Assembly: GCA_029975165.1 (NCBI GenBank)
Contig: JARKPR010000031.1
Span: 103,640-167,639 of the forward strand
DNA length: 64,000 bases
Direction: 5' to 3'
Origin: Selenomonadales bacterium
GTDB taxonomy: Bacteria; Bacillota; Negativicutes; Sporomusales; UBA7701
The translations under genes were made by a program, and so were the position numbers. Position 1 is the stretch's first letter. The number at the start of each line of letters is the position of its first letter. A model generated the notes under the pieces. The model saw only the letters and a program-made list of their open reading frames with translations, was not told the DNA's origin and did no database searches. Shown here one piece after another: positions 34,883 through 62,565 of the stretch.

Positions 34883-34898
34883 GCCAAAACAGCCGCTT

Positions 34899-34927: not shown

Positions 34928-34987
34928 CCAGTAGAACCGCTGTTTCATTGCTAGCGGATTTACTTGCGGGAAGGGGAGAGATTCACA

Positions 34988-36607
34988 ATGGCCAAGATTA
35001 GCGGCCCGACAGTGAAGCAAAAGGTGGCGGATGGGGATTGGGCAAGCCTCGTACGCGTTTCGACGGACGGTCAGTTCCAGGAGGGCGAGAGCTACGAGAT
35101 CCAGGCCCAGGTCAACAAAGAAACGATCGAGAGCCACGGTGGCAAGCTGTACAAGGAATACAAGGAGGACGGGGTGTCGGCCTTCAAGAAGCGAGTCCAC
35201 CAGCGGCCGGTTATGATGGCGCTGCTGAACGACATCGCCGCCGGCAAGGTTAAGAACATCGTTGCCTTCAAGCGCGACCGCATATGTCGCGACCCGATGG
35301 ACTATTACATACTACGCGACGCGTTCAGCAAGGCCGGCGTCAAAATTATTCTTACCTGCGGAACCGAAACCTGGGGCGATCCTGATACCAATTCGCCGAC
35401 AGATGAGTTGCTTGATGGCTTGATGCCACTCCTGGCGAAGTTCGAGAGCATGACAACCTCCCAAAGGGTCAGGGCAAACCTCCAGGCCATTGTCCAGCGC
35501 GGCGAGTGGAGGAACAGCCGGCCGCCCTACGGTTATAGATATGACGCCGAAACCAAGCGAGTATTGCAAGTCCCCCACCAAGTCGAAACCGTTAGGTTGA
35601 TCCGCGACCTCTACATCCAGGGCAACGGCGCGCGAAGGATTGCCGACCAATTGAACAACACATACAGGAGACCGTATGAAAGCACCGCTCCCGGTTGGAA
35701 GACCGAACACATGAAAAAACGGGAGCTGTGGTACCCCGAAGTGGTGCTCTCCGTCGTTTCTAAACCAGTCTACATGGGTGTGCAGGTATGGGGCGGTGAA
35801 TGGTACGAGTGCGGCGCCATTGACCCCATCTTCACAAAAGAGGAGTGGATGGAGGCTTACGAGATATACAAGGCCAAGCTGACCAAGACCGTCCCGCACA
35901 AGTACTACAGCACGGTGTTTCTCTTCAAGGATATAATGTATTGCGCCCATTGCGGCGAAAAGATGATACCAAAATATCACAAGCGTCGATACCAAAAGCA
36001 GGACGGTTCGGAGTCAATTTACGAATACTACGAATACAGATGCGAAGGCCGCTGGGATAGGGCCAACGGCTGCAAGAGCCGGGTCCATCGGAGAGGCTTC
36101 ATAGAAGATGCCATCGTGGAGCTTGTGGCGGAACGGATACTTGACTACGATATCGATGAGCTTTACAAGGCGCTCCTTGATAAAATGAAGAGTGAAGTCA
36201 AGGACTACAATAGGTCGATAGTTAATCTTCAAAACGAAATTAAAAGCATGCAGAAAACCGCCGACCAGCTGACAGAAAGTTTCTTGGAGGCTCCGCCCAA
36301 CTCCAGTATGAGGAAAAGGCTTCTTGAAAAATCGGAGGCCGTAGAGCAAGCTTTGATGCAACTACAGGGCGAGTTGGAGGCTCAGTTACAGAATCCACCG
36401 ATTGAGCACGTTAGTCAGACGGATGTGGCCAAGACATACGAAAGTATGAAAAAATGGAACGGCATTATGCGAAATCCCGACATAGGTCGAGAGGTTAAGC
36501 GGAAGCTGGCACTGGAGGTAGTGAGCAGGATTGAGGTAGACAAGGAAGGCGGTCTTAACATTTGGCTTAAGGTTGACCCTAAATTTCCCCAGAGTAGAAG
36601 TGCATAG
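34988..36607 (+). CDS. Large serine recombinase (phage integrase), 539 aa
   Basis: Site-specific integrase. N-terminal resolvase domain with ASLVRVSTDGQ (nucleophile S25 in the 539-aa numbering) and FKRDRICRDPMDYYILRD; then the Recombinase domain (PPYGYRYDAETKRVLQV) and a zinc ribbon with CAHCGEK...C...C, followed by a long coiled coil (KDYNRSIVNLQNEIKSMQ) that controls recombination direction. ATG 34988 follows GGAAGGGGAGAGATTCACA. Its position at the cooS junction makes it the enzyme that inserted, and can excise, the prophage, normally with a directionality factor for excision. Confidence 0.95.
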   Translation: MAKISGPTVKQKVADGDWASLVRVSTDGQFQEGESYEIQAQVNKETIESHGGKLYKEYKEDGVSAFKKRVHQRPVMMALLNDIAAGKVKNIVAFKRDRICRDPMDYYILRDAFSKAGVKIILTCGTETWGDPDTNSPTDELLDGLMPLLAKFESMTTSQRVRANLQAIVQRGEWRNSRPPYGYRYDAETKRVLQVPHQVETVRLIRDLYIQGNGARRIADQLNNTYRRPYESTAPGWKTEHMKKRELWYPEVVLSVVSKPVYMGVQVWGGEWYECGAIDPIFTKEEWMEAYEIYKAKLTKTVPHKYYSTVFLFKDIMYCAHCGEKMIPKYHKRRYQKQDGSESIYEYYEYRCEGRWDRANGCKSRVHRRGFIEDAIVELVAERILDYDIDELYKALLDKMKSEVKDYNRSIVNLQNEIKSMQKTADQLTESFLEAPPNSSMRKRLLEKSEAVEQALMQLQGELEAQLQNPPIEHVSQTDVAKTYESMKKWNGIMRNPDIGREVKRKLALEVVSRIEVDKEGGLNIWLKVDPKFPQSRSA

Positions 36608-36861: not shown

Positions 36862-37257
36862 TTAGCTTTCGACCTGCTGATCGACTCTCGCGAGCTTCGA
36901 TTCAATTTCTTTTCGCCTCTTTTTTAAATAGCCGTACTCGATATAGTCCATATTTTCGGGGTCGAGCACAAATTCTCGCAGATGTTGTGGTAAGTGATCG
37001 AGTTCCCCCTTTGGTGTCTCTCTTATATACTCCATCGTAATTTCTAAGTGCGGCAGTAGTTTTTCGATGATATCAATAGGCAGTCTCTTGTATTCATCTT
37101 TTTCTATTCTCGCGATTGTTGGCCGTGAAATTCCCGACAGTTTTGCTAAAGTCTCTAAGGTTAGTTTTTTCGATACCCTTGCTTGTCTTATTTTACTGCC
37201 AGGGGTCTTCGGCTCATGCGTATCAAAAATAGCAAAACCCTCCTCAATAATTCTCAC
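36862..37257 (-). CDS. Phage repressor 1, HTH XRE family, 131 aa
   Basis: Helix-turn-helix protein: KIRQARVSKKLTLETLAKLSGISRPTIARIEKDEYKRLPIDIIEKL at about residues 22-67, then an acidic C-terminal region. Read divergently from the next gene, typical of lysogeny control. The start is odd: GTG 37257 overlaps the palindrome CCCTATATAGGG and has no ribosome site, while GAGGAGGG lies inside the frame and would better serve an ATT codon about 27 bp in. Likely binds the two palindromes at 37259 and 37388. Confidence 0.85.
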   Translation of the reverse strand: MRIIEEGFAIFDTHEPKTPGSKIRQARVSKKLTLETLAKLSGISRPTIARIEKDEYKRLPIDIIEKLLPHLEITMEYIRETPKGELDHLPQHLREFVLDPENMDYIEYGYLKKRRKEIESKLARVDQQVES

Positions 37258-37902: not shown

Positions 37903-38085
37903 TTGAAGACCCTGTACGACCTGAGCGACTTTTCCGGAGCCTTTTGGTGGGTCCGGTTGCCTAACGGCGTCTATCTCGTCGATCACCGTTACGAAGTCGA
38001 TTTTTTGGCGCACGCCAGTAAGAAGCGGGCGAAGTGTTCAAGGTGTTCCCTTCTGGAGGGAGAGAGCCTTCCCAAAAGCAAGTAA
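37903..38085 (+). CDS. Small phage protein, 60 aa
   Basis: TTG 37903 follows AAGGGGAGAGATTAGC. Product opens MKTLYDLSDFSGAFWWVRLP and ends with a CSRC pair and basic tail. Its end overlaps the convergent repressor gene by 48 bp. Unknown function. Confidence 0.5.
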   Translation: MKTLYDLSDFSGAFWWVRLPNGVYLVDHRYEVDFLAHASKKRAKCSRCSLLEGESLPKSK

Positions 38086-38451
38086 AAGATTGTCTGCAGC
38101 CTCCGGTGTAATGCCCATCTTCTTTATCTTCATCGCCAGCAATAAGTAATCGATGTTGCTGGTATCAAATATAAAATCACGGACTTCGACAGGTATCTCT
38201 TGGGGAAACAAATCCATGAGATTATCCCCATCGTAGTAAAAAAATATTGGGTCTTTACCTAATGCCGCGCAAAGCGCCTCTACGGTCGCTGGGCGCGGAT
38301 TTTTATTTTTCCCCGTTTCTATATCCGACTGAGTTGAGGCTTTAACCCCGCTCAGTTCTTCGAGATCAGCCATGGTATAACTTTTGCGGTCTTTGTTGTT
38401 GCCTTCTCTAGCCTCTTTTAACTTATGGCCGTGAAATAACAAGCTTTTCAA
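38038..38451 (-). CDS. Phage repressor 2, HTH XRE family, 137 aa
   Basis: Cro/CI-type helix-turn-helix at about residues 10-70 (KLKEAREGNNKDRKSYTMAD, LEELSGVKASTQSDIETGKN), with a C-terminal segment unlike S24 peptidases, so not LexA-cleavable by the classical route. TTG start at 38451 follows AAAGGGGATGGACAC. Divergent from the gene at 38634, with three ACCGT-type palindromes between. Confidence 0.8.
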   Translation of the reverse strand: MKSLLFHGHKLKEAREGNNKDRKSYTMADLEELSGVKASTQSDIETGKNKNPRPATVEALCAALGKDPIFFYYDGDNLMDLFPQEIPVEVRDFIFDTSNIDYLLLAMKIKKMGITPEAADNLLLAFGKALSLQKGTP

Positions 38452-38482
38452 GTGTCCATCCCCTTTCGTGCAACATTATATC

Positions 38483-38493
38483 CGGTTTAACCG
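38483..38493. promoter_or_regulatory. Operator site A of repressor 2
   Basis: CGGTTTAACCG palindrome 30 bp upstream of the repressor 2 start. Confidence 0.55.
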
Positions 38494-38522
38494 TAGAAGT
38501 CAAATTTGATAATCGTTATTTT

Positions 38523-38537
38523 ATACGGATTTACCAT
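38523..38537. promoter_or_regulatory. Operator site B of repressor 2 (partial)
   Basis: ATACGGATTTACCAT shares ATACGG...ACC with site C; one arm is imperfect. Confidence 0.4.
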
Positions 38538-38597
38538 TGATTCCCGATTGATTTAATTCATTTTAACTTATAAAATTCATTATAGATTCGCAATTAC

Positions 38598-38614
38598 ATA
38601 CGGTAAAACCGTAT
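38598..38614. promoter_or_regulatory. Operator site C of repressor 2
   Basis: ATACGGTAAAACCGTAT, near-perfect palindrome of 17 bp just before the ribosome site of the gene at 38634. Confidence 0.6.
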
Positions 38615-38633
38615 AACGAAAGGGGAATTGTAT

Positions 38634-38807: not shown

Positions 38808-38833
38808 TCCTAAGTTGAAAGCAAGGTGAAGTT

Positions 38834-39109
38834 GTGAACTGGAAAGATCGAACCCACTCCGAGCGCATCACCTTCCCAACTACGTCGAAACCCACCTCAG
38901 AAGAAGAATTAAAAGCTCTGCTTATTGACTTTCAAGCTTATCTGGAAGAATTCGAAATTCATTTCTCCAATCTCGTTAGCCAGGTTCCCTGCCTAGATGC
39001 GACAGGAATCGATTTCGACATTGTGCTACGGACCTACCAGAACGTGCTGGTACTGCTTGACAGCTCGGTAAAGTTAAAAAGATTTGTTGAAAAGAGGGTA
39101 GGTGCCTAA
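38834..39109 (+). CDS. Phage protein of unknown function, 91 aa
   Basis: GTG 38834 follows AAGGTGAAGTT. Soluble and mostly helical (EEELKALLIDFQAYLEEFEI, VLRTYQNVLVLLDSSVKLKR). It is the last gene before the tandem-repeat array. No family recognised. Confidence 0.55.
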   Translation: MNWKDRTHSERITFPTTSKPTSEEELKALLIDFQAYLEEFEIHFSNLVSQVPCLDATGIDFDIVLRTYQNVLVLLDSSVKLKRFVEKRVGA

Positions 39110-39199
39110 ATAAAGCGATCCATTCGTTTTAACTACGTTCCTAAAGCAAAGCACTTTCGTCCGTCCTCCGCGCTAGACGAGCTTGCTTTCAAATCTAAA

Positions 39200-39604
39200 T
39201 AACCCATCCAAAGCGCGCGAGTAAACCAAGGTCTTTCAGCGAGCCGTCGCGGGTTAGAAACCCATTCCAAAAAAGCGAGCCGGACTATGCCAGTAATCCA
39301 AGGGTGTCAAGCGAGCCAAGTACATCAAGAAACCCAACACCGCCTAGCGAGCCAGGTAGGAACAGAAACCCATTTGAGCAAAGCGGGCCGTTGCATGTAA
39401 GGCGTCCGGGGCTTAACAGCGAGCCGTTCCTGGCAAGAAAACCAAAGTTGTAAAGCGAGCCGTCCCTTCCCAGAAACCCATTACTCAATAGCGAGCCACA
39501 ACGGAAAAGAAAACCACTCCGTTCCAGCGAGCCATCGATCAGAAGAAACCAAGACCCTTTCAGCGTGCCAAACAAGATCAAGTAACCCATTCGTCATCAG
39601 CGAT
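39200..39604 (+). repeat. TIGR-like tandem interspaced guide array, ten 36-bp units
   Basis: From 39238 nine units of exactly 36 bp and one of 37 bp follow each other; a half unit (AGTAAACCA) precedes at 39220 and a truncated box (AGCGA) ends it at 39599. Each unit: AGCGAGCC (exact in eight of ten), unique 10-nt spacer, AGAAACCCA (exact in four, close in most others), unique 9-nt spacer. Spacers do not resemble one another apart from a slight purine-T bias at their first bases. Direction is assumed to be that of the flanking genes. This equals the published TIGR layout (36-nt tigRNAs with two short guides). Confidence 0.85.
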
Positions 39605-39616
39605 AAGGAGGCAGCC

Positions 39617-40498
39617 GTGAATAAATCAACCCTTCGTTCCATGGTCAAGTCGTTCTATGACGCTCAAAAGCTCCGGATCGAGGTCGGGAACCGCATCGTC
39701 GGTAACGTCCGGGTTCGGCTCGGGCAAGAACCCGGCACCAAAACCGAGGAAATGGACGACAAGGCACAGGACCTTCTAGGTTCCCTGGTTATCGACTACA
39801 AGCGGATCACCGACGCGCTGACTTCGTCTAGCAACCGGGCAAAGGTGAAGGCAATCGAATCCAACAGCGGCATTATTACTGATCTTTTCGAGTACAACCT
39901 GGTCGGCTATTACATGGCGTTGCTGAACAGCGAGCTGTCGCTCGAAAAAACCATCAAGGATGCCGTGGCCACCTTCCCGATCTGGGGCGCGTTCCTTGAA
40001 GGCGTTAGGGGCTGCGGGCCGCTTATGGCTGCGGTAATTCTCAGCGAGCTGGACCCCGCGAAGGCCGACCGCGTATCCGGTTTTTGGCGCTACGCCGGGC
40101 TAGATGTGGTTGTCGACGAAGAAGGGCACGGTGAGGGAAGGTCGCGTAAGCAGCACCACCTGGTCGACCGCGCCTACACAAACAAAAAGGGCGAAGAAAC
40201 AACGCGCAAAGGTATAACCTTCAACCCATTTTTGAAGACAAAACTGGTCGGTGTTTTGGGTTCCGTCTTCATCAAACTGGGAGGGGCCTATCGGGAAGTG
40301 TACGACGGCTACAAGTTCCGGTTACAGAATCGGCCTGATTGCAGCGAACTGTCAAAGGGTCACATCCATAACCGTGCCGTCCGATACATGATTAAAATCT
40401 TCTTGCGGGACCTGTGGTTGGCCTGGCGCGAAGTGGAGGGCCTGCCAGTAACCCCGGACTACGCTACCGGGAAGCTGGGAATCCAACATTCCGCGTAA
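39617..40498 (+). CDS. tasA: Tas-like protein with Nop/IS110 C-terminal domain, no nuclease (TasA type), 293 aa
   Basis: Predicted guide-RNA-binding effector of the adjacent array. An N-terminal helical region (residues 1-120) is followed by a helix-hairpin-helix-like stretch, VRGCGPLMAAVILSEL (130-145), FWRYAGLDVVVDEEG (156-170), and HIHNRAVRYMIKIFLRDLW (249-267), the layout of the IS110/IS116/IS902 C-terminal domain to which the snoRNP Nop domain is related. There is no RuvC DEDD set and no HNH motif, so it should bind DNA rather than cut it. GTG start follows AAGGAGG, which begins within a few bases of the last array box. Alternative reading: a stand-alone IS110-derived phage protein. Confidence 0.75.
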   Translation: MNKSTLRSMVKSFYDAQKLRIEVGNRIVGNVRVRLGQEPGTKTEEMDDKAQDLLGSLVIDYKRITDALTSSSNRAKVKAIESNSGIITDLFEYNLVGYYMALLNSELSLEKTIKDAVATFPIWGAFLEGVRGCGPLMAAVILSELDPAKADRVSGFWRYAGLDVVVDEEGHGEGRSRKQHHLVDRAYTNKKGEETTRKGITFNPFLKTKLVGVLGSVFIKLGGAYREVYDGYKFRLQNRPDCSELSKGHIHNRAVRYMIKIFLRDLWLAWREVEGLPVTPDYATGKLGIQHSA

Positions 40499-40511
40499 GG
40501 AGAGGACACAC

Positions 40512-40970
40512 TTGGCAAAAATCACCGTCTATGTTGAATCCGATAATCCTGCCGATCTCCGCGCTGCTCTACAGGAGCTACTGACTGGCGCTCCGGTCGT
40601 GGTGGGCGCACCTGAGCCGGCCAAACCGGCGAAGCCTAAAAAGGCCACCGAGAGCAAGCCCGAGCCGGTCGTGGCCGCCGATCCGGCGCTAGCTGCTGAT
40701 CCGGTCGAACCGCCGGCGGCTGATCCCGCTCCGGCACCGGCTCCCGCTCCCGCTGCCAAGGAAAAGAAGATCACCCATGAAGATCTTCGGGAAGCCATGC
40801 AACCGCTGAAACGAGAAGTTTCGCTCCAACTGGTGGCTGAGTTCAGCGGCAAGGCACCCGAGGAAAAGCCCAAACTTAGCGACGTTCCGGCCGAGAAACA
40901 TGCGGAGCTGCTCGCTGAAGCACAGCGGCTTTCCCAGCTGCCCGAAAACGTGAAGCAGGCCATTGCATGA
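40512..40970 (+). CDS. Phage protein with Ala-Pro linker, 152 aa
   Basis: TTG 40512 after GGAGAGGACACAC. Short N-terminal alpha/beta part (KITVYVESDNPADLRAALQE), a long Ala/Pro/Glu linker (about residues 35-85) and a helical C-terminal domain (HEDLREAMQPLKREVSLQLV). Its stop overlaps the next start (ATGA). Function unknown; the two-domain plus linker form suggests a tether between partners in the replication module. Confidence 0.55.
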   Translation: MAKITVYVESDNPADLRAALQELLTGAPVVVGAPEPAKPAKPKKATESKPEPVVAADPALAADPVEPPAADPAPAPAPAPAAKEKKITHEDLREAMQPLKREVSLQLVAEFSGKAPEEKPKLSDVPAEKHAELLAEAQRLSQLPENVKQAIA

Positions 40971-42133
40971 GCCAACACGCACTACTTTCGGCCTCCAGCG
41001 CCAAACGCTGGATGAACTGCCCGCCGAGCGCCCGGATCGAAAGCACGATGCCCGAACAGCAGAGCCTTTTCGCTACCGAGGGCAGCTTTGCCCACGACGT
41101 CGCACATATGCTGCTGGTGGAATACCTGGGCCGCATGAACCCGGCCGGGCTGGATGAGTGGCAGTATAGTCTGCGGCACGACCCGCTCTGGACCGAGGAT
41201 TTGCTGGATTATGTCCAGGTGTATGTCGATCTGGTCATTGAGAAAATCAACGCTGCCAGGGCTGTGTCCCGCGATGCAGTGATCCTCCTGGAGCAAAAAC
41301 TGGACTATTCTCCGTGGGCACCTGGTGGCTTCGGAACCGGCGACGCCGTGATTTACGCGGATGGCTACTGCGAGGTTATTGATTTGAAGTATGGGAAAGG
41401 CGTCTCGGTGTCGGCCGAGGACAACCCTCAACTGCGGCTCTACGGCCTGGGTGCCCTCAATCGCCCGGACGCCCATCTCTACAGCATAGAAAACGTGACC
41501 ACGACCATCGTGCAGCCGCGCCTCGATAGCGTCACCAGCGAAACCCTAAGCGCCGACGATCTGCTTGCCTGGGCCGATGCCGAGGTAAAACCCAAGGCAC
41601 AGCTTGCCTGGGATGGTAAAGGCGAATACTGCGCCGGTGAATGGTGCCGGTTCTGTAAAATCAAGCACACCTGCCGGACCCGGGCCAACGAGGCCATAGC
41701 TCTGGAATCATACGGCCGCACTAAACCCCAACTGTTAACGGTTACTGAGATTGCCGACATTCTGGGAAAGGCCGAGCTACTTATCTCCTGGGCGTCCGAC
41801 GTCAAGAGCTGGGCGCTCGAACAGGCTGAAAAACACCATGTTACTTATCCGGGCTGGAAATTAGTCGAAGGTCGCAGTAATCGGGCATATGCCGACCGGG
41901 CACTGGTGGCCACGCGGCTGCTGGACGCCGGCTTTAAGCCCGAAATGATCCACAAGGACCCGGAATTGCTGGGCATCACCGAAATGGAGCGGCTGCTCGG
42001 CAAGAAACGCTTTGCGGAGCTGTTGGAGGGTCTGGTTATCAAGCCGGCCGGCAAACCGGCCCTAGTGCCGAGTACCGATAGGCGGCCCGCGATCAATTCC
42101 CTGGAAGCGGCCATCGCCGACTTCGCCGACTAG
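40967..42133 (+). CDS. DUF2800 phage protein (PD-(D/E)XK nuclease-like), 388 aa
   Basis: Opens HALLSASSAKRWMNCPPSAR and has VILLEQKLDYS, VIYADGYCEVIDLKYGKG (the D-x(n)-E-x-K-like acidic/lysine set) and four cysteines (CAGEWCRFCKIKHTC) for an Fe-S or zinc site, as in Cas4/AddB-type nucleases. Common in Firmicute phages beside DUF2815 and a PolA-type polymerase, exactly as here. Probably a recombination exonuclease. Confidence 0.85.
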   Translation: MSQHALLSASSAKRWMNCPPSARIESTMPEQQSLFATEGSFAHDVAHMLLVEYLGRMNPAGLDEWQYSLRHDPLWTEDLLDYVQVYVDLVIEKINAARAVSRDAVILLEQKLDYSPWAPGGFGTGDAVIYADGYCEVIDLKYGKGVSVSAEDNPQLRLYGLGALNRPDAHLYSIENVTTTIVQPRLDSVTSETLSADDLLAWADAEVKPKAQLAWDGKGEYCAGEWCRFCKIKHTCRTRANEAIALESYGRTKPQLLTVTEIADILGKAELLISWASDVKSWALEQAEKHHVTYPGWKLVEGRSNRAYADRALVATRLLDAGFKPEMIHKDPELLGITEMERLLGKKRFAELLEGLVIKPAGKPALVPSTDRRPAINSLEAAIADFAD

Positions 42134-42145
42134 GAGGCCGAACCT

Positions 42146-42616
42146 TTGAAACAGATTACACAAACCACCGCATGGGTTCCCGGCGTCGGGCCTGACGCGC
42201 CCACCGTGGTAAACGAGAAGGGCGCCAAACAGTCCAAGTGCCTTTATAAGTTCACCGATTTCGACCCGCGCCATGTTCTCCGGGTGGCCGCCGTATCCGC
42301 CAAGGGCTTCACCAAATATGGACCGAGGAACTACCTCGGAATCCCGACCCTGGAGCATATCGACCACGCTCTCACACACATTAATGCGTTCCTGGCCGGT
42401 GATCCGCAGGAGGACCACCTGGCCCACGCCATCTGCAGACTTTACTTCGCCATGGCGACCAAAGAGTTAGACGCCGATCCGGCACCGGCCGCCGAGGGCT
42501 GCGCCCACATGACGGAAGCCTGCCCGGCGGTCTGCAAATCTGATTCAGACGATCCCTGTCCGGTTCCCTGGACCCGCGCAATGATCGAAGTAATAAACAC
42601 AAAAGGGGAGATTTGA
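42146..42616 (+). CDS. DUF5664-like dATP/dGTP diphosphohydrolase-type protein, 156 aa
   Basis: TTG 42146 follows TAGGAGGCCGAACC. The core HIDHALTHINAFLAGDPQED and HLAHAICRLYFAMATKE has the helical metal-binding look of the DUF5664/MazG-like group annotated as dATP/dGTP diphosphohydrolases. A C-terminal Cys-rich tail (CAHMTEACPAVC) is unusual. Overlaps the general theme of dNTP handling in this module. Confidence 0.55.
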   Translation: MKQITQTTAWVPGVGPDAPTVVNEKGAKQSKCLYKFTDFDPRHVLRVAAVSAKGFTKYGPRNYLGIPTLEHIDHALTHINAFLAGDPQEDHLAHAICRLYFAMATKELDADPAPAAEGCAHMTEACPAVCKSDSDDPCPVPWTRAMIEVINTKGEI

Positions 42617-42620
42617 ATTA

Positions 42621-43181
42621 ATGGCCACGAAACCGCAACCCACAAAACTCGTAACCGGCAAGGTCCGCCTCTCCTATGCATTCTTGACCGCTCCGAAGAA
42701 AAACGACGCTGGGGAAGATGTCTGGAGCTGCCAGGTGCTGATCCCTAAGACCGACACCGTCACCATTGAAAAGTACAAAGCCTGTATCGCCGCCGTCAAG
42801 GCCAGTCCGGCCGCCGTCGGCAAGTGGGGCGGGAAGGTGCCCGGCGAGCTGAAGCTGCCGCTGCGCGATGGCGATGCCAGCGCCGACGAATTCCCGGAAA
42901 GAAAGGGTTGCTGGTTCTTCAATGCCAATGCCTACGAGGCACCTAAACTCGTAGACGCCGACCTCCAGCCCATCATGGACGCCTCTGAAATCTACAGCGG
43001 CATTTATGGCCGCGTCAGCGTGAACTTCTTCGCCTTCAACAATTCGGGAAATAAGGGGATCGGCGTCGGTCTGAATTCCGTTCAGAAGCTCAAAGACGGC
43101 GAACCGCTAGGAGGAGTCCGCAGTAAGCCGGAGGACGACTTCGGCGACGGCTTCGAGGACGACGACGATTTCCTGGACTAA
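42621..43181 (+). CDS. DUF2815 phage protein (ssDNA-binding-like), 186 aa
   Basis: Family hallmarks: TGKVRLSYAFLTAPKK, VWSCQVLIPKTDT, WFFNANAYEAP, and RVSVNFFAFNNSGNKGIGVGL, with an acidic C-terminal tail ending DDDDFLD. DUF2815 proteins resemble T7 gp2.5-type single-strand DNA-binding proteins; the acidic tail fits partner recruitment. Followed by a terminator and then the polymerase. Confidence 0.85.
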   Translation: MATKPQPTKLVTGKVRLSYAFLTAPKKNDAGEDVWSCQVLIPKTDTVTIEKYKACIAAVKASPAAVGKWGGKVPGELKLPLRDGDASADEFPERKGCWFFNANAYEAPKLVDADLQPIMDASEIYSGIYGRVSVNFFAFNNSGNKGIGVGLNSVQKLKDGEPLGGVRSKPEDDFGDGFEDDDDFLD

Positions 43182-43188
43182 CCATAGA

Positions 43189-43234
43189 AAAGCAAATAGG
43201 CTGATGTGCTACCACACATCGGCCTATTTTTTTT
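43189..43234 (+). terminator. Terminator between DUF2815 and polymerase genes
   Basis: Stem ATAGGC-GATGTG / CACATC-GCCTAT with loop CTAC and TTTTTTTT; weak enough by its bulges to allow read-through into the polymerase. Confidence 0.75.
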
Positions 43235-43252
43235 CGGTAAGGAGTGTGCCCA

Positions 43253-45250
43253 TTGAGGGACGTCCTCAGCATTGATATTGAGACATTTTCCCCTGTTGAT
43301 CTCCAGAAATCCGGCGTCTATCCCTATGCCGAACACGCCGATTTCGCCATTCTCCTGTTTGGCTATGCTTTCAATTCAGATCCCATTCGGGTCGTCGACC
43401 TGGTCAGCGGCGAGCCGCTACCGGACGAAGTGTGCGACGCCCTGGTGGATAGCCGGGTGCTGAAAGCGGCCTATAACGCGGCCTTCGAGCGCATCTGCCT
43501 CTCGCGCTACGTGCGGCCGTGGGCGCTCTCTGACAGCGAATTCCTGCCGCCCGAGCAATGGGTCTGCACGATGGTCCAGGCGCTTACGCTGGGCCTGCCA
43601 GGCAACCTGGCGGGCGTGGCAAAGGTGCTTTTCAATGGGCAGCAGGACAAGCAGAAAATGACCGAGGGCAAGGCCCTAATCCGGTATTTCTGCACACCCT
43701 GCAAGCCCACACATTCGAACGGCGGCCGGACCCGGAACCACCCGCAGCACGCGCCGGCCAAGTGGGCGATCTTTAAGGCCTATTGCGGACAGGACGTCGA
43801 GGTTGAGCGGTCGGTCCGGAAAAAGATTAATCGCTATCAGTTGGTGGAAACCGAACGCCGGCTGTGGGTTCTGGACCAGCAAATCAACGACCGGGGCATC
43901 CGGATAGATATTCCGCTGGTCCATCAGGCGATCCGCTGCGACGAGGAAGACAAGGCTCGCGCCATGGATGAGGCGATCCGCCTTACCGGCCTGGAGAACC
44001 CAGGTAGCGTAGCGCAACTCAAAGAGTGGCTGTTCGCAGAAACCTCCGAGGCGGTTCAATCGCTGAACAAGAAAACGGTTCCGGCGCTGCTGAAGGCCAC
44101 CGACAACGAGAAGGTCCGGAGAGTCCTGGAGCTGCGTCAGGAGCTATCGAAGACCAGCGTAAAAAAGTACACGGCTATGGAAAACGCCGTGTGTAAGGAT
44201 TCCAGGGTCCGGGGGCTGCTCCAGTATTACGGCGCAAACAGAACCGGGCGGTGGGCCGGGAGGTTGGTCCAAGTCCAGAACCTACCCCAGAATAAGTACA
44301 AGGACCTGGACTTGGCTAGGCGCCTGCTCCGCGAGGGTGACTTCGAACTGCTTGATATGTTATTCAGCGGGGTCCAGAACCCCCTTTCGCAGCTCATACG
44401 GACGGCCTTCATCCCCCTGGTTGGCGGCTACTTCATCGTTGCCGACTTCAGCGCGATCGAGGCCCGCGTTATCGCCTGGCTCGCCGGCGAGAGGTGGCGG
44501 CTGGAAGTGTTCAGCTCCCACGGTAAAATCTACGAAGCGTCCGCCTCGGCCATGTTCCATGTGCCCATCGAGTCCATCACTAAGGCATCACCGCTCCGCC
44601 AGAAGGGGAAGGTGGCCGAGCTGGCATTGGGATACCAGGGCGGCCCGAAAGCCCTCATAGCCATGGGAGCCCTGGATATGGGGTTGACCGAGGACGAACT
44701 GCCCGGGCTGGTGACGGCTTGGCGGGAGGCCAACCCCAACATTGTACAGCTCTGGCGCGACGCCGAGCGGGCGGCCGTGAAGGCGATCCGGGAAAAAACC
44801 ACCGTCAAGCTGAAGATGGGAGTTTCCTACACCTACGAGCGCGGGATGCTCTTTGCGAATCTGCCGAGCGGTCGCCGGCTGGCCTATGTTCGGCCGAGGA
44901 TGGAGCAGCACCCGACACTGGAAAAACAGTCCCTGACCTACGAGGGCATGGACCAAACCACCAAGCAATGGCGCAAAATCCCCACCTATGGCGGGAAGCT
45001 GGTCGAGAATCTGGTCCAAGCCATCGCCCGGGATTGCCTGGCGGCGGCGCTCATGCGGCTCGACGAGAACGGCTATTCCACCGTGATGCACGTCCACGAC
45101 GAGGCGGTCATTGAGATGGCCGGTACCGGTGCCATGGAGGCCGAGCTGGAGAAAGCCTGCATACTCATGGGGCTGCCGATTTCCTGGGCGCCGGGGCTGC
45201 CGCTCCGGGCTGATGGATATGTCTGCCATTACTACAAAAAGGATGATTGA
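43253..45250 (+). CDS. Phage DNA polymerase, family A with 3'-5' exonuclease, 665 aa
   Basis: Exonuclease domain: SIDIETFSPVDLQKSG at residues 6-21. Polymerase domain: GRWAGRLVQVQNLPQ, DFSAIEARVIAWLAGE (motif A, near residue 400), KVAELALGYQGG (motif B) and MHVHDEAVIEM (motif C). TTG 43253 is favoured because AAGGAG lies 8 bp upstream; a GTG at 43244 is inside that site. Replicates the prophage with VapE primase-helicase and the two helper nucleases. Confidence 0.93.
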   Translation: MRDVLSIDIETFSPVDLQKSGVYPYAEHADFAILLFGYAFNSDPIRVVDLVSGEPLPDEVCDALVDSRVLKAAYNAAFERICLSRYVRPWALSDSEFLPPEQWVCTMVQALTLGLPGNLAGVAKVLFNGQQDKQKMTEGKALIRYFCTPCKPTHSNGGRTRNHPQHAPAKWAIFKAYCGQDVEVERSVRKKINRYQLVETERRLWVLDQQINDRGIRIDIPLVHQAIRCDEEDKARAMDEAIRLTGLENPGSVAQLKEWLFAETSEAVQSLNKKTVPALLKATDNEKVRRVLELRQELSKTSVKKYTAMENAVCKDSRVRGLLQYYGANRTGRWAGRLVQVQNLPQNKYKDLDLARRLLREGDFELLDMLFSGVQNPLSQLIRTAFIPLVGGYFIVADFSAIEARVIAWLAGERWRLEVFSSHGKIYEASASAMFHVPIESITKASPLRQKGKVAELALGYQGGPKALIAMGALDMGLTEDELPGLVTAWREANPNIVQLWRDAERAAVKAIREKTTVKLKMGVSYTYERGMLFANLPSGRRLAYVRPRMEQHPTLEKQSLTYEGMDQTTKQWRKIPTYGGKLVENLVQAIARDCLAAALMRLDENGYSTVMHVHDEAVIEMAGTGAMEAELEKACILMGLPISWAPGLPLRADGYVCHYYKKDD

Positions 45251-55700: not shown

Positions 55701-57374
55701 ATGAGCTACTTGGAAGAATATGCCCGGAAGGTTCTTTCTGGCGAAATCGTCGCCTGCCGGCGGATTAAGCAAGTCTGCGGGATACTGCTGGACAAGCTGC
55801 TCCACCCGGAAAAATACGACCCTTGGGTCTTCGATGAGAAGCTGACGGAGAAGCCTATCGACTTCATCGAAACCTTCTGTAAGCAGGCGCAGGGGAAAAT
55901 GGGCACGCCTATAACGCTGGAGCTGTTCCAGAAGGCGAAGTTCCAGGCCCTCTTTGGGTTCGTCCACAAGGACACCCGGTTCCGCCAGTACAACGAGTGC
56001 CTGACGATTGAGGGCCGCAAAAACGGCAAGTCCTCGGAATCCGCCGCCGTCAACCTGTTTCTGCTCATGGGGGATGGGGAGGGCGCGCCGGAAATCTACA
56101 ACATCGCCACCATGCTCGACCAGGCGAAGATCGGCTGGGAGTACGCCTACAAGATGGTCAAACAGTCGCCGGTCCTCCGGAAGCATATCCGGAAGCGCAT
56201 CAGCGACCTGTACTTCCCGGTGAACATGGGGATTATCAAACCCCTGGCCAGCAACAGCAACAGCTTGGACGGTCTGAACGCCCACGGCGTCACCATCGAC
56301 GAGCTGTCCGCCATAAAGAACCGCGATATTTACGACTTGATGAAACAGTCCATGTCGGCCCGGCAGCAGCCGCTGCTCTTTTGCATCACGACCAACGGCT
56401 TCGTGCGCGACGGCATTTTCGATGCTCAGTATGACTACGCCTGCGCGATCTTGGACGGCAAGGTCAGGGATGACCGTTTTCTGCCGTTCATCTACGAGCT
56501 GGACGACAAGGAGGAGTGGGACAAGGAGGAGTGCTGGATAAAGGCCAACCCCGGCCTGGGCACCATCAAGTCCCTGGCGTTTCTCCGCGACTGTGTCGCT
56601 AAGGCCAAGAACGACCCGGCCTTTAAGCCGACGGTCATGGTCAAAGATTTCAACATGAAGGAAAACAGCAGCTCCGCCTGGCTTACCTGGGACGAAATCA
56701 ACAACCAGGGGGAGTTCGACTTCCGCGCCATGGGCTTCCGCTACGGCATCGGCGGGTTCGATGCCTCGGAAACCACGGACCTCACGGCCGCTAAGGCTAT
56801 CGCCATGAAGCCCGGCGACAACCGCATATATGTGCGGTCGATGTACTGGATTCCGGAGGATGTCCTTCGCAAGATGGACGCCGACGGCAATCGCCGCGAG
56901 CGCGACAACGTGCCCTACCTCCTGTGGGAGAAGCAGGGCCTGCTCAGAACCACGCCGGGGAACAAGATTGATAAGCATTGCATCCTGGAGTGGTTTAAGG
57001 AGCTGCGCGACCAGGAGGATTTATACATCCCCTGGATAGGCTACGACCCCTGGCATATCGAGGACGCCCTGCTAAACGAGTTTAAGGCCGAATTCGGCGC
57101 GGAATCCATGATTAAAGTTCGGCAGGGGGTTCAGACATTGAGTTATCCGATGAAGTCCCTAAAAGGCGACCTGGCTGCCGGGAAGATCATCTTCAACCGG
57201 AACCCGGTCGATATGTGGAATCTTTCAAACCTGGAAATCCGCACCGACCTTAACGCGAACATCCAGCCGGTCAAAGGCAAGGACGACCGGCGCCGCATCG
57301 ACGGCGCCATGGCGCTCATCATCGCCTACGTCGTTCTCCAGGACAAGATGGATGAATACTCCAATCTGATTTGA
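55701..57374 (+). CDS. terL: Terminase large subunit, 557 aa
   Basis: Packaging ATPase-nuclease. Walker A variant GRKNGKS at 105-111, Walker B LNAHGVTIDELSA, coupling motif CITTNG, and RNase H-like nuclease residues in GIGGFDASETTDLTA and GAMALIIAY. Follows TerS and precedes HNH and portal genes, the HK97-type order. Confidence 0.93.
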   Translation: MSYLEEYARKVLSGEIVACRRIKQVCGILLDKLLHPEKYDPWVFDEKLTEKPIDFIETFCKQAQGKMGTPITLELFQKAKFQALFGFVHKDTRFRQYNECLTIEGRKNGKSSESAAVNLFLLMGDGEGAPEIYNIATMLDQAKIGWEYAYKMVKQSPVLRKHIRKRISDLYFPVNMGIIKPLASNSNSLDGLNAHGVTIDELSAIKNRDIYDLMKQSMSARQQPLLFCITTNGFVRDGIFDAQYDYACAILDGKVRDDRFLPFIYELDDKEEWDKEECWIKANPGLGTIKSLAFLRDCVAKAKNDPAFKPTVMVKDFNMKENSSSAWLTWDEINNQGEFDFRAMGFRYGIGGFDASETTDLTAAKAIAMKPGDNRIYVRSMYWIPEDVLRKMDADGNRRERDNVPYLLWEKQGLLRTTPGNKIDKHCILEWFKELRDQEDLYIPWIGYDPWHIEDALLNEFKAEFGAESMIKVRQGVQTLSYPMKSLKGDLAAGKIIFNRNPVDMWNLSNLEIRTDLNANIQPVKGKDDRRRIDGAMALIIAYVVLQDKMDEYSNLI

Positions 57375-57381
57375 GGTCATC

Positions 57382-57681
57382 GTGGCGCAGGATTTTGCAA
57401 AAGCATTTTACAACTCCACGGCCTGGCTGAAATGCCGGGCCGCTTATATTGCGTCGGTCTTCTACTGCTGCGAGCTGTGCCATGAGCCGGCTGGCACCAG
57501 CGGGATTGTCCACCACAAGGTGCTGCTGACGCCGGCGAACATCGGCGACCCCGATGTCACGCTTAATTGGGACCGGCTGGAGTACCTGTGCCAGCGGTGC
57601 CACAACCAGACGCACGGCGACAGCCGCCCCACCCGGGAGGGCGTCCGGTTCGACGAACAAGGCAATTTGGTGATGGGGTGA
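57382..57681 (+). CDS. HNH endonuclease, 99 aa
   Basis: HNH fold with two CxxC pairs: CCELC-HEPAG, VHHKVLLTP (HH of HNH), and CQRCHNQTHGD. In HK97-like phages an HNH beside terminase supports specific cutting at the packaging site. GTG start just after the terL stop. Confidence 0.9.
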   Translation: MAQDFAKAFYNSTAWLKCRAAYIASVFYCCELCHEPAGTSGIVHHKVLLTPANIGDPDVTLNWDRLEYLCQRCHNQTHGDSRPTREGVRFDEQGNLVMG

Positions 57682-57685
57682 AAAA

Positions 57686-58969
57686 TTGGAGTTTAGGTCT
57701 ATGTTTGATGCCGTCTTCGGCGGTAAGAAATCGCCGGTGAACGTGACGCAGTTCCAGTTTTTGAACGACTACGCGCCGTTCTTCTCGTCGGTCAGCGGCA
57801 ATTTCTACGACAGCGATGTCGTCCGGACCTGCGTCGACGCGATCGCCAGGAACGCGGCGAAGCTGAAGCCTAAACACATTAGGCGGGCCAACGGCCGGGT
57901 CACGGCAATTGCCGACGACCTACAATGGCTTTTGGAGGTGCGGCCTAACCCCTATATGTCGGCCTATGATTTCCTCTACAAGGTGGTTAGCCAGCTCTAT
58001 ACCAACAACAACGCCTTCGTCTACATCCGGTTTGATTCGATCGGCAAAATTACCGGCCTGTTTCCGCTGTCGTATTCCTCTCTGGAGTTCGTGGAGTACG
58101 AGGGCGAGCTGTACTGTCGGTTCACCTTTCTGACCGGGTTCCGGATGACGGTCCCCTATACCGAACTGATTCACATTCGGCGCCACTTCAACGGCAACGA
58201 CATATTTGGGGAAACCAACGAGCGGCCGTTTAAGCCGACGCTCTCTCTCATCCAGACGGTTAACGAGGGCATTATCAACGCCATCAAATCCTCGGCCCGG
58301 CTGCGGGGCTTCCTCAAATTCACCCAGACCCTCCGGCCGGAGGATCTCAAAAAGCAACGCGACCAATTCGTGGCCGACTATCTCTCTATTAACAACGACG
58401 GCGGCATCGGCGCCGTGGACGCCAAGGCCGATTTCACGCCGGTCGAAATGAACGGGAAGATGGTCGACGACAAGCAGATGGCCGTTATCCGGGACAGCGC
58501 CTACCGCTATTTCGGGATTAACGAGAACATCATAAAAGCCGACTACACCGAGGACCAATGGAACGCCTTCTATGAATCGGTGCTTGAACCCATCGCCATC
58601 CAACTGTCGCTGGAGTTCACGGAGAAGTGCTTCTCCGACCGCGAGAAGGGGTTCGGCAACGAGGTTATCTTCGAGGCCAACCGCCTCCAGTACGCCTCCA
58701 ACAAGACCAAGATAACCCTGCTCCAGTATCTGATGCCCATGGGCATTTTCTCTATCAACGATGCGCTGGAAATCCTCAATATGCCTCCGGTCGAAGACGG
58801 CGACCGGAGGATTTTTAGTTTGAACTACGTCAACGTCGAGCTGGCCGACGTCTACCAGACTGGGAAGCCAGCGCTAAGACCAAACACACAAAAAGGGGGC
58901 GATGCTGTTGAAGGAAACGAGGCAGAAGGAAGTCCGGATGGCGGAGATGCGGGCGATCCCGCAGGATGA
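57686..58969 (+). CDS. HK97-type portal protein, 427 aa
   Basis: Forms the DNA entry vertex. Family features: MSAYDFLYKVVSQLYTNNNAF, YTELIHIRRHF near the middle, YFGINENIIKADYTEDQWNAFYE and LEPIAIQLSLEFTEK. TTG 57686 (TGGGGTG upstream) is the likely start; ATG 57701 is an alternative that loses five residues. Confidence 0.92.
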   Translation: MEFRSMFDAVFGGKKSPVNVTQFQFLNDYAPFFSSVSGNFYDSDVVRTCVDAIARNAAKLKPKHIRRANGRVTAIADDLQWLLEVRPNPYMSAYDFLYKVVSQLYTNNNAFVYIRFDSIGKITGLFPLSYSSLEFVEYEGELYCRFTFLTGFRMTVPYTELIHIRRHFNGNDIFGETNERPFKPTLSLIQTVNEGIINAIKSSARLRGFLKFTQTLRPEDLKKQRDQFVADYLSINNDGGIGAVDAKADFTPVEMNGKMVDDKQMAVIRDSAYRYFGINENIIKADYTEDQWNAFYESVLEPIAIQLSLEFTEKCFSDREKGFGNEVIFEANRLQYASNKTKITLLQYLMPMGIFSINDALEILNMPPVEDGDRRIFSLNYVNVELADVYQTGKPALRPNTQKGGDAVEGNEAEGSPDGGDAGDPAG

Positions 58970-59534
58970 TCAGCAGGACATGATGGTCGAAGGCTACGCG
59001 ATAGTCTTTGAACAGCCGACGGTCCTCTGGACCGACCCGGACACCGGTAAAGAATACAAAGAAGTGATTTCTCGCGGTGCCCTGGACGGCGTCGATCTTT
59101 CGGACGTGCCGTTTAAGTATAACCACAGCGACAACGTGATGATTATGGCGCGTTCGCGGAACAAGACACTGACCCTTATCCCGGACGACGTGGGGTTGAA
59201 AATAATAGCCAACCTGGCGCCCACGACCACCGGCAAAGATTTATATACGCTTATCCAACGAGGCGACATCAACAAGATGTCGTTCGCTTTTTATGTGGCC
59301 GACGATGAGTTCGACCGGGCCACGACCACCCGCCGCATTAACAAGTTCGCCGCCATCGGCGACGTGTCGGCCGTTGATATGCCTGCCTATGACCAGACGT
59401 CCCTGGCGGCCCGCTCTTATTACGAGAGTCAGAAGGCGGCCGCCGAGCTGGTCGAGCGCGAAAAGCGCGAGGCCGAAAAACGCGAGCAACTGCTTCGCCT
59501 GCGGAAGAAGCTCATTGCTAGAACTAGCCTGTAA
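58902..59534 (+). CDS. HK97-type prohead protease, 210 aa
   Basis: U35/HK97 protease: VEGYAIVFEQP, ISRGALDGVDLSDVPFKYNH (catalytic His region), SFAFYVADDEF and AIGDVSAVDMPAYDQT (catalytic Ser region). Start is uncertain: ATG 58902 lies too near AAAAAGGGGG; TTG 58908 is better spaced. C-terminal basic coiled tail likely interacts with the capsid protein. Overlaps the portal gene end by 68 bp. Confidence 0.9.
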   Translation: MLLKETRQKEVRMAEMRAIPQDDQQDMMVEGYAIVFEQPTVLWTDPDTGKEYKEVISRGALDGVDLSDVPFKYNHSDNVMIMARSRNKTLTLIPDDVGLKIIANLAPTTTGKDLYTLIQRGDINKMSFAFYVADDEFDRATTTRRINKFAAIGDVSAVDMPAYDQTSLAARSYYESQKAAAELVEREKREAEKREQLLRLRKKLIARTSL

Positions 59535-59560
59535 AAATCGGCCGGATGGCCGTTTTTTAT
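59533..59560 (+). terminator. Short terminator before the capsid gene
   Basis: Stem CGGCC / GGCCG with TTTTTT; may help raise the capsid transcript relative to upstream genes if a promoter lies in 59560-59680. Confidence 0.6.
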
Positions 59561-59682
59561 TGCCTTAACTCGGGACGCTGGATAGCTACCGAGCGCCCTG
59601 GATAGGACGTGGCGTGTTTCTGTTCCGGCTTCGGTTTCTGCTCCGTCCCGCAAAAAATCTGTATTTTGAGAGGAGAACCGAT

Positions 59683-60855
59683 ATGGAAATGCGCCTCAGA
59701 GAAATTGCCGCACGCAAGGCCGAAATCCGCACCCTTCTGCAAAACGACAACGAGTGCGACCTTGACGCCATCCAGGCCGAGCTGGATACCCTTGACCAGG
59801 AGGAGCGCAACATTCAGCGGCGCCTCGACATCGCTGGCAAACTGAACGCCGGCGACGTTCGCGGTCGCATCATCCTGCCTCCGGGCGCCAAGGGCGCCCA
59901 GGAAGACGAGCAACGCTCCGATTTCGACACCACGTCAATGGAATACCGCACTGCCTTCATGAACTACGTGTTGCGCGGCACGCCGCTGCCGCAGGAGTTC
60001 CGAGCGGACGCCACAACCATGACCACCGGCGCTCCGATTCCCCAGAACGTACTGAACACCGTCATTGATAAGCTACTGGCCAGTGGCATGATTCTTCCCC
60101 TTGTTACCCAGACCAACTACAAGGGCGGCGTAGCCATCCCCAATTCCAGCGTGAAGCCTGTCGCCACATGGGTGTCTGAAGGTCAGGGCAGCAGCAAGCA
60201 GGCCAAGACCACCGGTTCCATCATCTTCGGATATTACAAACTGCGCTGCGCCGTGGCGGTTAGCCTTGAGGTTGATACCATGGCCGTGCCTGCCTTTGAG
60301 GCCGTCCTGATCAACAACGTGTCTCAGGCCATGGTCATCGCTCTGGAACAGGCCATCATCACCGGCACCGGCGTCGGTCAGCCGACCGGCATCATTTCCG
60401 CCGGCACCACCGTCAACGCTGGCCAGGTCATCACTGGCGTTCCCAAGCGCGCCGACTTCATCAAGGCCGAGGGCGCCCTGGATATCGCCTACGAGGCAAC
60501 AGCGAAATGGTGCATGACCAAGCAGACCTGGAACACCATGCTGGGTGAAACCGATACCGCCGGCCAGCCGATTGCCCGCGTGAATGAGGGCATTCCCGGC
60601 AAAACCTCCCGTACGTTGCTCGGGCGCGAGGTTGTGCTGTGCAATTATCTCCCTACCTATGCCACCGGCCTAACGGCTGGCACTGTCTGGGCCTTCCTCT
60701 TCGACTTCAGCGACTATGTGCTGAATACGAACTATAACATCAACATCCAGCGCTACCAGGAAATTTGGGTGGGTGACGATTGGGTAACCCGGGCGGTTCT
60801 CGTCGCCGACGGCAAAGTAGTCGATCCCAACTCCCTGGTCACTCTCGTTAAATAA
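59683..60855 (+). CDS. Major capsid protein, HK97 family, 390 aa
   Basis: HK97-fold coat protein. N-terminal delta domain is a coiled coil (AARKAEIRTLLQND, DAIQAELDTLDQEERNIQ) removed by the protease; mature part begins near residue 105. Motifs include TTGAPIPQNVLN, VATWVSEGQG, EQAIITGTGVGQPTGI and NINIQRYQEIWVGDDW. ATG 59683 follows GAGAGGAGAACCGAT. Confidence 0.92.
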   Translation: MEMRLREIAARKAEIRTLLQNDNECDLDAIQAELDTLDQEERNIQRRLDIAGKLNAGDVRGRIILPPGAKGAQEDEQRSDFDTTSMEYRTAFMNYVLRGTPLPQEFRADATTMTTGAPIPQNVLNTVIDKLLASGMILPLVTQTNYKGGVAIPNSSVKPVATWVSEGQGSSKQAKTTGSIIFGYYKLRCAVAVSLEVDTMAVPAFEAVLINNVSQAMVIALEQAIITGTGVGQPTGIISAGTTVNAGQVITGVPKRADFIKAEGALDIAYEATAKWCMTKQTWNTMLGETDTAGQPIARVNEGIPGKTSRTLLGREVVLCNYLPTYATGLTAGTVWAFLFDFSDYVLNTNYNINIQRYQEIWVGDDWVTRAVLVADGKVVDPNSLVTLVK

Positions 60856-60902
60856 TTATGGGACGGAGCAATCCGCCCTACTCTTTTAAGGCGGTGACAC
60901 GG

Positions 60903-61112
60903 ATGAAAAAGATTGACGAGGTGGCGGCGGCTTTCGCCGAGCTGAACCTCAGGATCGTTAACGATATCCTCGCCCGCGGCTACACGCCTATTGACGAGGA
61001 GACGCTCTCAATGGTCAGGGAGAACCTCCTGGCCCTCAAAGGTTTCGACATCGACGTGCCGGCTCCGGCCGAGCCGGCCCCTGCGACGAAAACCGGCAAG
61101 GCTGGTAACTGA
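60903..61112 (+). CDS. Small phage head protein, 69 aa
   Basis: AAGGCGGTGACACGG precedes ATG 60903. Short helical protein (ELNLRIVNDILARGYTPIDE) with an Ala/Pro tail. Lies between capsid and connector genes, so likely a minor head or decoration protein; no family recognised. Confidence 0.5.
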   Translation: MKKIDEVAAAFAELNLRIVNDILARGYTPIDEETLSMVRENLLALKGFDIDVPAPAEPAPATKTGKAGN

Positions 61113-61114
61113 CC

Positions 61115-61420
61115 GTGGCCGCAGCGCTCACGCTCGATGACGTGAAGCTCTACCTCCGGGTTGACGGCGTCGATGAGGACACTCTCATCCAGGACTTGAT
61201 GGATGGGGCGGTTAGCTACATGCAGCGCATGACCGGCAAGGTCTACGACCCCGCCGACGGCGTGTGGAAGATGGCGGTGAAGTACCTCTGCTCGCATTGG
61301 TACGAGAACCGGGATGACACGGTCGCCGGCCGTGACGCGAAGGTTGGCCACACCATCGACGCGCTCATATACCACATCTCCCTCTGCGACGACTACGACG
61401 ACCTTCCGGTGTCGCCATGA
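61115..61420 (+). CDS. Head-tail connector, gp6-like, 101 aa
   Basis: Phage_connect_1/gp6 type: LTLDDVKLYLRVDGVDEDTL, YMQRMTGKVYDP, and WKMAVKYLCSHWYENRD. Forms the ring below the portal. Ends over the start of the next gene. Confidence 0.88.
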   Translation: MAAALTLDDVKLYLRVDGVDEDTLIQDLMDGAVSYMQRMTGKVYDPADGVWKMAVKYLCSHWYENRDDTVAGRDAKVGHTIDALIYHISLCDDYDDLPVSP

Positions 61421-61731
61421 TAAGCGGGCGAATGAACTGGCGGGTGACGCTGCTGCAGCCGGTCAAGATTCCCGACGGCATGGGCGGCTCCCGGTCCGAC
61501 TTTCAGCCGGTGGGCAAGGTCTGGGCGGAGCTGCGGAACGTCAACACGAAGGAGGTGCCGGCGGTCGGGGCAGCCGCCAGCGACCTGGTGAGGCAGATTT
61601 CCATCCGGCGCCGGGCCGACGTTAGGCGTGGCTGGCGTGCCCAGATCGGCGGCCGGTTTTACGACGTGCTGAACACCTACGACATCAACCGCGAGGCCAC
61701 GATGCTGGTCTGCCGGGAGGTGACGACTTAA
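61417..61731 (+). CDS. Head closure / head-tail adaptor protein, 104 aa
   Basis: SPP1 gp16-like: MNWRVTLLQPVKIPDGMGGS, WAELRNVNTKE, and RRGWRAQIGGRFYDVLNTYDINRE. Overlaps its neighbours by 4 bp (ATGA) and 1 bp, showing a coupled connector block. Confidence 0.88.
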   Translation: MISGRMNWRVTLLQPVKIPDGMGGSRSDFQPVGKVWAELRNVNTKEVPAVGAAASDLVRQISIRRRADVRRGWRAQIGGRFYDVLNTYDINREATMLVCREVTT

Positions 61732-62162
61732 TGGCGGCCTTCGTTGTAAACCTGGGCATTAACGATTTGCAGCGGACACTGGGGGCCTTCAAAACCTACG
61801 ACGCGCAGACCCAGGAGCGGCTGCGCTCTACGGTGCAATCGTCGACGTCGGCCATCATGCTCGGCGCGAAGCGGCGGGCGCGGGTCAAGTCCGGCGGCCT
61901 GGTCAGGAACATCACCATGACCTACGACGGCGCCCAGAACACCGGCACGGTCCGGGCTAAATCGCCGCACGCCCACCTGGTGGAGTACGGCGCTCGGGCG
62001 GCCCTGGTGCGCCCGGTCAAGAAGAAGGCCCTGGCCATCGGCGAGAACTTGGTCGCCTCGGCTAAAGTGCCGGCCCGCACAGCCCACCCCTATATGCGGC
62101 CGGCGTTCGAGGATGAGAAGCCCGACCTTCTCCGGGCGACGCAGGCGGCGGTGAAAGCATGA
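61731..62162 (+). CDS. HK97 gp10-like tail-completion protein, 143 aa
   Basis: Contains ARVKSGGLVRNITMTYDG and HAHLVEYGARAALVRPV, the HAxLVExG hallmark of HK97 gp10-like proteins, and ARTAHPYMRPAFED near the end. Part of the connector assembly. Confidence 0.9.
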   Translation: MAAFVVNLGINDLQRTLGAFKTYDAQTQERLRSTVQSSTSAIMLGAKRRARVKSGGLVRNITMTYDGAQNTGTVRAKSPHAHLVEYGARAALVRPVKKKALAIGENLVASAKVPARTAHPYMRPAFEDEKPDLLRATQAAVKA

Positions 62163-62560: not shown

Positions 62561-62565
62561 CATCT

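Follow-up and report, generated by a model that had tools for sequence, protein, structure and literature searches.

The window analysed here, a 64,000-nucleotide (nt) stretch of contig JARKPR010000031.1 of a Selenomonadales bacterium, carries a tandem interspaced guide RNA (TIGR) array that runs directly into tasA, the gene for a solo Nop-domain Tas protein, inside a prophage (Table 1). This is a clear and typical TIGR-TasA locus, new for the window and likely for its host group, and its TIGR-TasA membership is near certain. The first-pass annotation, made from the letters alone, had proposed a TIGR array in a prophage; we uphold that proposal on the basis of the adjacent Tas gene, a repeat anatomy that matches the published definition (PMC12045711), the same kind of array at 76 of 89 related tas loci, covariation within the edge repeat, and a setting that runs from integrase to tail genes.

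Each unit of the array consists of a 9-nt edge repeat, a 9-nt spacer A, a 9-nt loop repeat and a 9-nt spacer B, with the exception of unit 10; in the consensus parse the edge reads AGCGAGCC followed by A or G, and the loop reads AGAAACCCA. The 36-bp period, correctly located from the start, is real: 16 of the 36 columns are identical in at least seven of units 1–9, against a maximum of 4 in 100 shuffles of 39101–39700. The number of units is 11 and not ten, as unit 0 (39202–39237) had been overlooked; it comprises the 5′-truncated edge ACCCATCCA, spacer AAGCGCGCG, loop AGTAAACCA and spacer AGGTCTTTC. Spacers of 10 and 9 nt had been claimed, of which the 9-nt length stands; units 1–10 all have A or G at the start of the alleged 10-nt spacer, and this base is part of the edge repeat, so that both spacers are 9 nt long (unit 10 alone has 10 + 9 nt and a period of 37). 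The array thus shows the two alternating 8–12-nt repeats with ~9-nt spacers published for dual-repeat TIGR-Tas (PMC12045711), and both repeat classes carry the AG...CC (box D/box C) motif. Truncated terminal edges, as in dual-repeat TIGR-Tas, are present at both ends: the first edge is cut 5′ at 39202 and keeps CCA, and the last (AGCGA, ~39599–39603) is cut 3′ and keeps AGCG. Because these half-edges are the halves that would be present in a mature tigRNA, all 11 units could, by analogy, give guides. The suggestion that the 18-bp half phase goes back to a duplication giving the two boxes finds no support; in the published structure it is accounted for by two repeats that contact two identical protomers.

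The protein encoded by tasA is intact and in frame. It scores 135.7 bits against the NCBIfam model NF052498 (TIGR_Tas_endo; cut-off 100), a PDB sequence search matched it to TasR and TasH, and its predicted fold is nearer TasH/TasR than IS621; in the fold alignment it starts at residue 66 of TasH and residue 111 of TasR. A Pfam scan found no HNH or RuvC nuclease domain in it, as expected of the TasA subtype. Public databases list the Tas homologues P0005, P0009 and PHROG 4285 as transposases.

Proteins matching TasA number 1,723, the best named relatives being from Veillonellales (65% identity) and Sporomusa aerivorans (64%). One protein of the host has 94% identity to a protein labelled Sporomusaceae bacterium, but also 85% to one labelled Geobacter; together with the TasA relatives this makes a Negativicutes host likely. 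Across 398 genomes sampled from the phylum, a full Tas occurs only once, in the window (511.8 bits); 19 other genomes gave partial matches of 19.8–28.8 bits, which we have taken for IS110, and no Tas was found in four other genomes of the genus or in one other genome of the family. We fetched 89 related tas loci (11 + 8 + 70 new, the last from the best 80 of 153; some are near-identical contigs) and called an array where at least eight columns were invariant over five units, a level never approached in 90 shuffled loci (maximum 4). Including the window's own locus (L012), 79 of 90 loci have arrays at this threshold, 76 of them at 36 bp, and some of the 11 failing loci (L019, L028) show array-like units by eye. 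Dropping L068 and L080, which lack TIGR-like boxes, leaves 76 loci plus the window, with the array downstream of tas in 55 and upstream, as in the window, in 22.

Covariation was assessed in 60 arrays with 887 edges, from which near-duplicates and the misphased L016 and L034 had been taken out. The edge pair 2-7 is standard in 849 of 887 edges (A-U 341, G-C 278, G-U 230), and the pair 3-6 in 867 of 887; the latter count is biased towards structure, as the 3-6 pair was used to assign edges and loops, and the 2-7 count is free of that. The same 2-7/3-6 pairing occurs in the TasR structure (PMC12045711), and the combination of box D/box C motifs shared by edge and loop with an extra covarying edge pair is that of TIGR-Tas. 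The novelty claimed for the repeat sequences is small, since the consensus edge AGCGAGCCA recurs in 15 and the consensus loop in 14 of the 60 non-redundant arrays; a search of the available literature for TIGR-Tas together with Sporomusa found nothing.

By description, the locus most resembles published TIGR-TasA systems such as FpTIGR (Faure et al. 2025, PMC12045711), sharing a solo Nop protein, a dual-repeat array with 36-nt units and 9-nt spacers, truncated terminal edges and a phage or prophage setting. It differs in that the array forms the tasA leader and continues into the ribosome-binding site, no intervening terminator having been found; in that its box D reads AG, where UG is used in the TasR arrays described there; and in that its host is likely a member of the Negativicutes. 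TIGR-TasH (Salicola phage CGphi29) and TIGR-TasR (9mty) have an N-terminal HNH or RuvC nuclease that is absent here. Unlike the archaeal and eukaryotic box C/D ribonucleoproteins (RNPs; Nop5, Nop56/58), the window's guides lie in a compact array. CRISPR arrays likewise combine constant boxes with unique spacers, but in the window the 9-nt repeats alternate and each guide has two 9-nt spacers, an anatomy unlike the 25–36-nt repeats with a single spacer, accompanied by cas genes, of CRISPR-Cas; no cas families were found among the proteins covered by general family scans (Pfam/PHROGs), no dedicated CRISPR-Cas caller having been run.

The array and tasA lie on the same strand in the early region of the prophage. 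The predicted promoter region is the gap that separates the early operon from the divergently oriented repressor gene; sigma-70-like matches (3 vs. a chance mean of 2.3) are no more frequent than chance. No Rho-independent terminator, a feature typical of TIGR-Tas but not defining, was found on the plus strand at 38000–40700. A single repressor-controlled early transcript with array and tasA is likely. A 152-aa open reading frame (ORF) with a TTG start begins 13 nt past the tasA stop; further on come PolA, methyltransferases, helicases, terminase, portal, head and tail genes. The contig ends with the window, inside the prophage, so that the prophage is incomplete here, with ~29 kb of it on one contig. 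An Rfam scan of 34000–64000 gave nothing at gathering scores.

Table 1. Coordinates of the array, tasA and neighbouring features in the window
Feature	Position	Strand	Basis or remark
TIGR dual-repeat array, 11 units	39202..39604	+	repeat parse, shuffles
Junction: truncated last edge, then tasA ribosome-binding site (AAGGAGG)	39599..39616	+	sequence
tasA: solo Nop-domain Tas protein, 293 aa, GTG start	39617..40498	+	NF052498, PDB sequence matches, predicted fold
Serine recombinase, likely prophage integrase	34964..36607	+	Pfam Resolvase/Recombinase/Zn_ribbon
Second HTH (XRE) regulator	36862..37257	-	Pfam
HTH (XRE/Cro-C1) regulator, likely lysogeny repressor	38038..38451	-	Pfam
Three related 24-nt operator-like repeats: 38475-38498, 38518-38541, 38593-38616	38475..38616	n/a	divergent gap
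57-aa ORF	38634-38807	+	precedes 91-aa ORF
91-aa ORF, no family	38834..39109	+	just upstream of array
Genes after tasA: 152-aa unknown, DUF2800/PD-(D/E)XK, dGTPase-like, single-stranded-DNA-binding, DNA polymerase A	40512..45250	+	
Tailed-phage late genes: terminase, portal, maturation protease, major head, connector, major tail	55701..63021	+	PHROGs

Three further observations concern the prophage and its borders. A single prophage ORF at 53738–55378 has ParB-like and DNA methyltransferase parts, and TasA loci sometimes accompany parB-like genes (PMC12045711). At 42146–48616, dGTPase-like, thymidylate synthase and nucleoside 2-deoxyribosyltransferase genes cluster with DNA methyltransferases, a possible DNA-modification module. 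Just before the serine integrase, 34079–34964 encodes the first ~182 of 621 model positions of cooS (anaerobic CO dehydrogenase) up to a stop; the rest (176–621) lies on another contig (C34:125796-127142, minus strand), where it borders lower-GC DNA and where structural phage genes were not seen in the eight scanned ORFs. The prophage may have split cooS, which is unproven because the overlap (SEVAFA) differs in codons.

We consider it very probable that the locus encodes a prophage-borne TIGR-TasA system whose guides would lead it to bind, and not to cut, the DNA of rival elements; the competing-element role itself is a guess of this analysis. By analogy with published systems (PMC12045711), the array and tasA would be co-transcribed from the repressor-controlled early region, processing of the transcript is predicted to give 36-nt double-spacer tigRNAs, and each tigRNA would guide a TasA dimer that binds, without cutting, an 18-bp DNA site in which one strand reads as spacer A and the other as spacer B. 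At the switch to lytic growth, the RNP would most likely keep competing mobile elements from being transcribed or replicated. We propose the bind-only mechanism because TasA contains no nuclease and because of published work on its relatives; PMC12045711 describes a 36-nt RNA bound to a TasA, and DNA binding for TasR and TasH.

Several points weigh against this proposal. The NCBI family is named an endonuclease, although TasA is a member without a nuclease domain, and TasR in E. coli did not reduce conjugation or plaquing, but plasmid loss was seen (PMC12045711). Nor was a natural target for the window's guides established by searches of the window, the genome and IMG/VR; the check for paired protospacers in phages and the host, as suggested by the first-pass annotation, yielded no convincing target for the guides tested. 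The genome search covered six of the 11 guides (u1, u2, u3, u4, u6 and u9), at gap 0 and in one arrangement, spacer A plus the reverse complement (rc) of spacer B, and was partial in that the draft assembly of the host, in 100 contigs, reaches 96.29% completeness and has a contig end inside the prophage. Cross-targeting, with 861 unique guides against 1.15 Mb of related tas loci and both strands counted, gave 33, 50 and 24 A+rcB matches with at most two mismatches at gaps 0, 1 and 2, compared with 33, 28 and 25 in the wrong orientation and 27, 34 and 22 in one shuffle; this is no convincing excess, though gap 1 stands at 50 vs. 28 and 34, and the matches recur over near-identical contigs.

We derived the A+rcB geometry from what PMC12045711 says about the cut sites and the overhang, in two wordings that differ by one bond. 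Self-targeting was tried in the window (A+rcB and rcA+B, gaps 0–2): the best sites had 4 and 3 mismatches, vs. 3–6 in 40 shuffled pairs, and as judged from sequence it is rejected for the phage part within the window. For u1 and u2, sought in five genomes of the genus at up to three mismatches, the best matches had two and lay in other species; for u3, sought in the same genomes at up to two, the best also had two. Among 100 genomes of the class (the host's own and three of the genus included), u4, u6 and u9 at up to two mismatches gave one 1-mismatch match, of u4, in another family; the rest had two. As a side observation, near matches to the real pattern outnumbered those to the reversed control for all six guides (39238–39561): u1 34/15, u2 7/4, u3 3/2, u4 11/5, u6 23/11 and u9 6/2, 84 vs. 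39 in total. This excess possibly reflects only natural word usage, because reversal breaks natural word order.

Exact scans of IMG/VR gave two matches for u8 (gaps 1 and 2), seven for u3 in three unrelated genes, three for the L069/L087/L009 guide in one phage (a gene read as tape-measure) and one, at gap 1, for the L033/L036 guide, all near chance. A guide family from relatives' arrays and not from the window, L001/L002/L087 (L001 exact, L002 and L087 with one mismatch), gave nine: seven at one polymerase-gene site, one in a gene read as radical-SAM and one at gap 1. The L001 guide (TTGAAGGCA/ACTTGGTCT) matches this family-B polymerase site exactly at gap 0 in seven viral contigs (L184, L186–L188 and L190–L192); family B was assigned by Pfam for the L190 copy, and T4-like is a reading only. 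In a 236-kb phage and three of its kin, only this guide family and one L031 guide (one mismatch) match with at most one mismatch. Wrong-orientation controls at gap 0 gave two exact and three one-mismatch matches, all at the polymerase site, because the site contains A-rcB-A; further controls gave one gap-1 match, and two shuffles gave 0 and 2 one-mismatch matches. The polymerase match may be a single coincidence that recurs because the gene is abundant.

The guides of related arrays provide a view of their evolution. Comparison of the 861 unique guides finds 51 pairs with at most three differences in 18 positions, a number that falls to one or two in five shuffles of B against A. Arrays sharing guides have tas DNA 3–25% different, with spacers A and B remaining together; at 46–57% divergence at fourfold-type sites, array pairs still share one to four guides with 0–4 total spacer mismatches. 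As sharing means at most three mismatches, some guides persist, not all, and most units turn over. These sequence comparisons suggest that spacer pairs move as A-loop-B cassettes, and persistence where synonymous tas sites have nearly half diverged argues for selection on guides; horizontal exchange of units is the alternative. No guide is common to the window and its relatives at up to four mismatches, L021 (Tas 77–78% identical) included, and a codon-wobble test on differences between related guides was not significant (p 0.07–0.33).

It is possible, though we think it unlikely, that the TIGR-TasA RNP serves a role other than competition, either bending DNA for integration or excision or regulating host or phage genes: the target DNA of TasR is bent through almost 180 degrees and aid to integrases has been suggested (PMC12045711), and the operon adjoins the immunity region of a prophage with a serine integrase. 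However, no target-like site beyond chance was found in the window, integrase end included, none of the six guides sought had a host match under two mismatches, and eleven different guides exceed the needs of integration. Somewhat more doubtful is a specific form of the competition reading, a nuclease-free RNA-guided silencer fired in the phage early programme, in which the array is also the tasA leader and TasA-tigRNA complexes shut off conserved genes in rival phages. When tigRNAs are trimmed with the help of Tas, the tasA mRNA would then be reshaped beside its ribosome-binding site, a built-in self-limitation, and the polymerase match of the L001/L002/L087 guide would represent the sort of target chosen.

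It is very improbable that the array has decayed or fallen silent and persists by chance, with no tigRNA function. The first-pass annotation regarded units 5 and 10 as degenerate and the array as ageing, and deviations do exist in the unit 5 loop (AGGCGTCCG), the unit 9 loop (AGAAACCAA, one box C base gone) and the unit 10 spacing; yet the unit 5 loop retains AG...CC, the G2-C7 pair is kept in 11 of 11 loops, and G2-C7 and C3-G6 are kept in 10 of 10 full edges, which speaks against ageing, and the intact tasA and the persistence of some relatives' guides beyond neutral sites argue the same way. We give hardly any credence to the reading of tasA as a transposase gene of the IS110 family that happens to adjoin an unrelated tandem repeat: Pfam Transposase_20 (19.3 bits) is under its cut-off of 21.3, and PHROG 4285 and some relatives bear transposase names, but NCBIfam IS110 reaches only 14.6 bits vs. 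a cut-off of 140 (match limited to 199–271 of 343), far from an equivalog score, whereas TIGR_Tas_endo passes; the N-terminal catalytic (DEDD) domain of IS110/IS621 bridge-RNA recombinases is missing, with an array in its stead, and arrays accompany the relatives. A protein-coding tandem repeat, which the first-pass annotation named as grounds for refutation, can practically be dismissed: despite a unit length divisible by three and one open frame in 5 of 64 arrays of at least 300 bp, none exists in the other 59, no open frame crosses 39220–39616 (a minus-strand 101-aa ORF listed at 39285–39590 does not span the array), and variable spacers alternate with invariant boxes.

Our preferred reading remains a prophage-borne TIGR-TasA system that would bind DNA of rival elements. 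PMC12045711 names the natural action of TasA and the targets of tigRNAs as open questions; with 11 resolved guides, an early region behind a likely repressor and a homologue in a named species, Sporomusa aerivorans, this array is suited to address TasA function.
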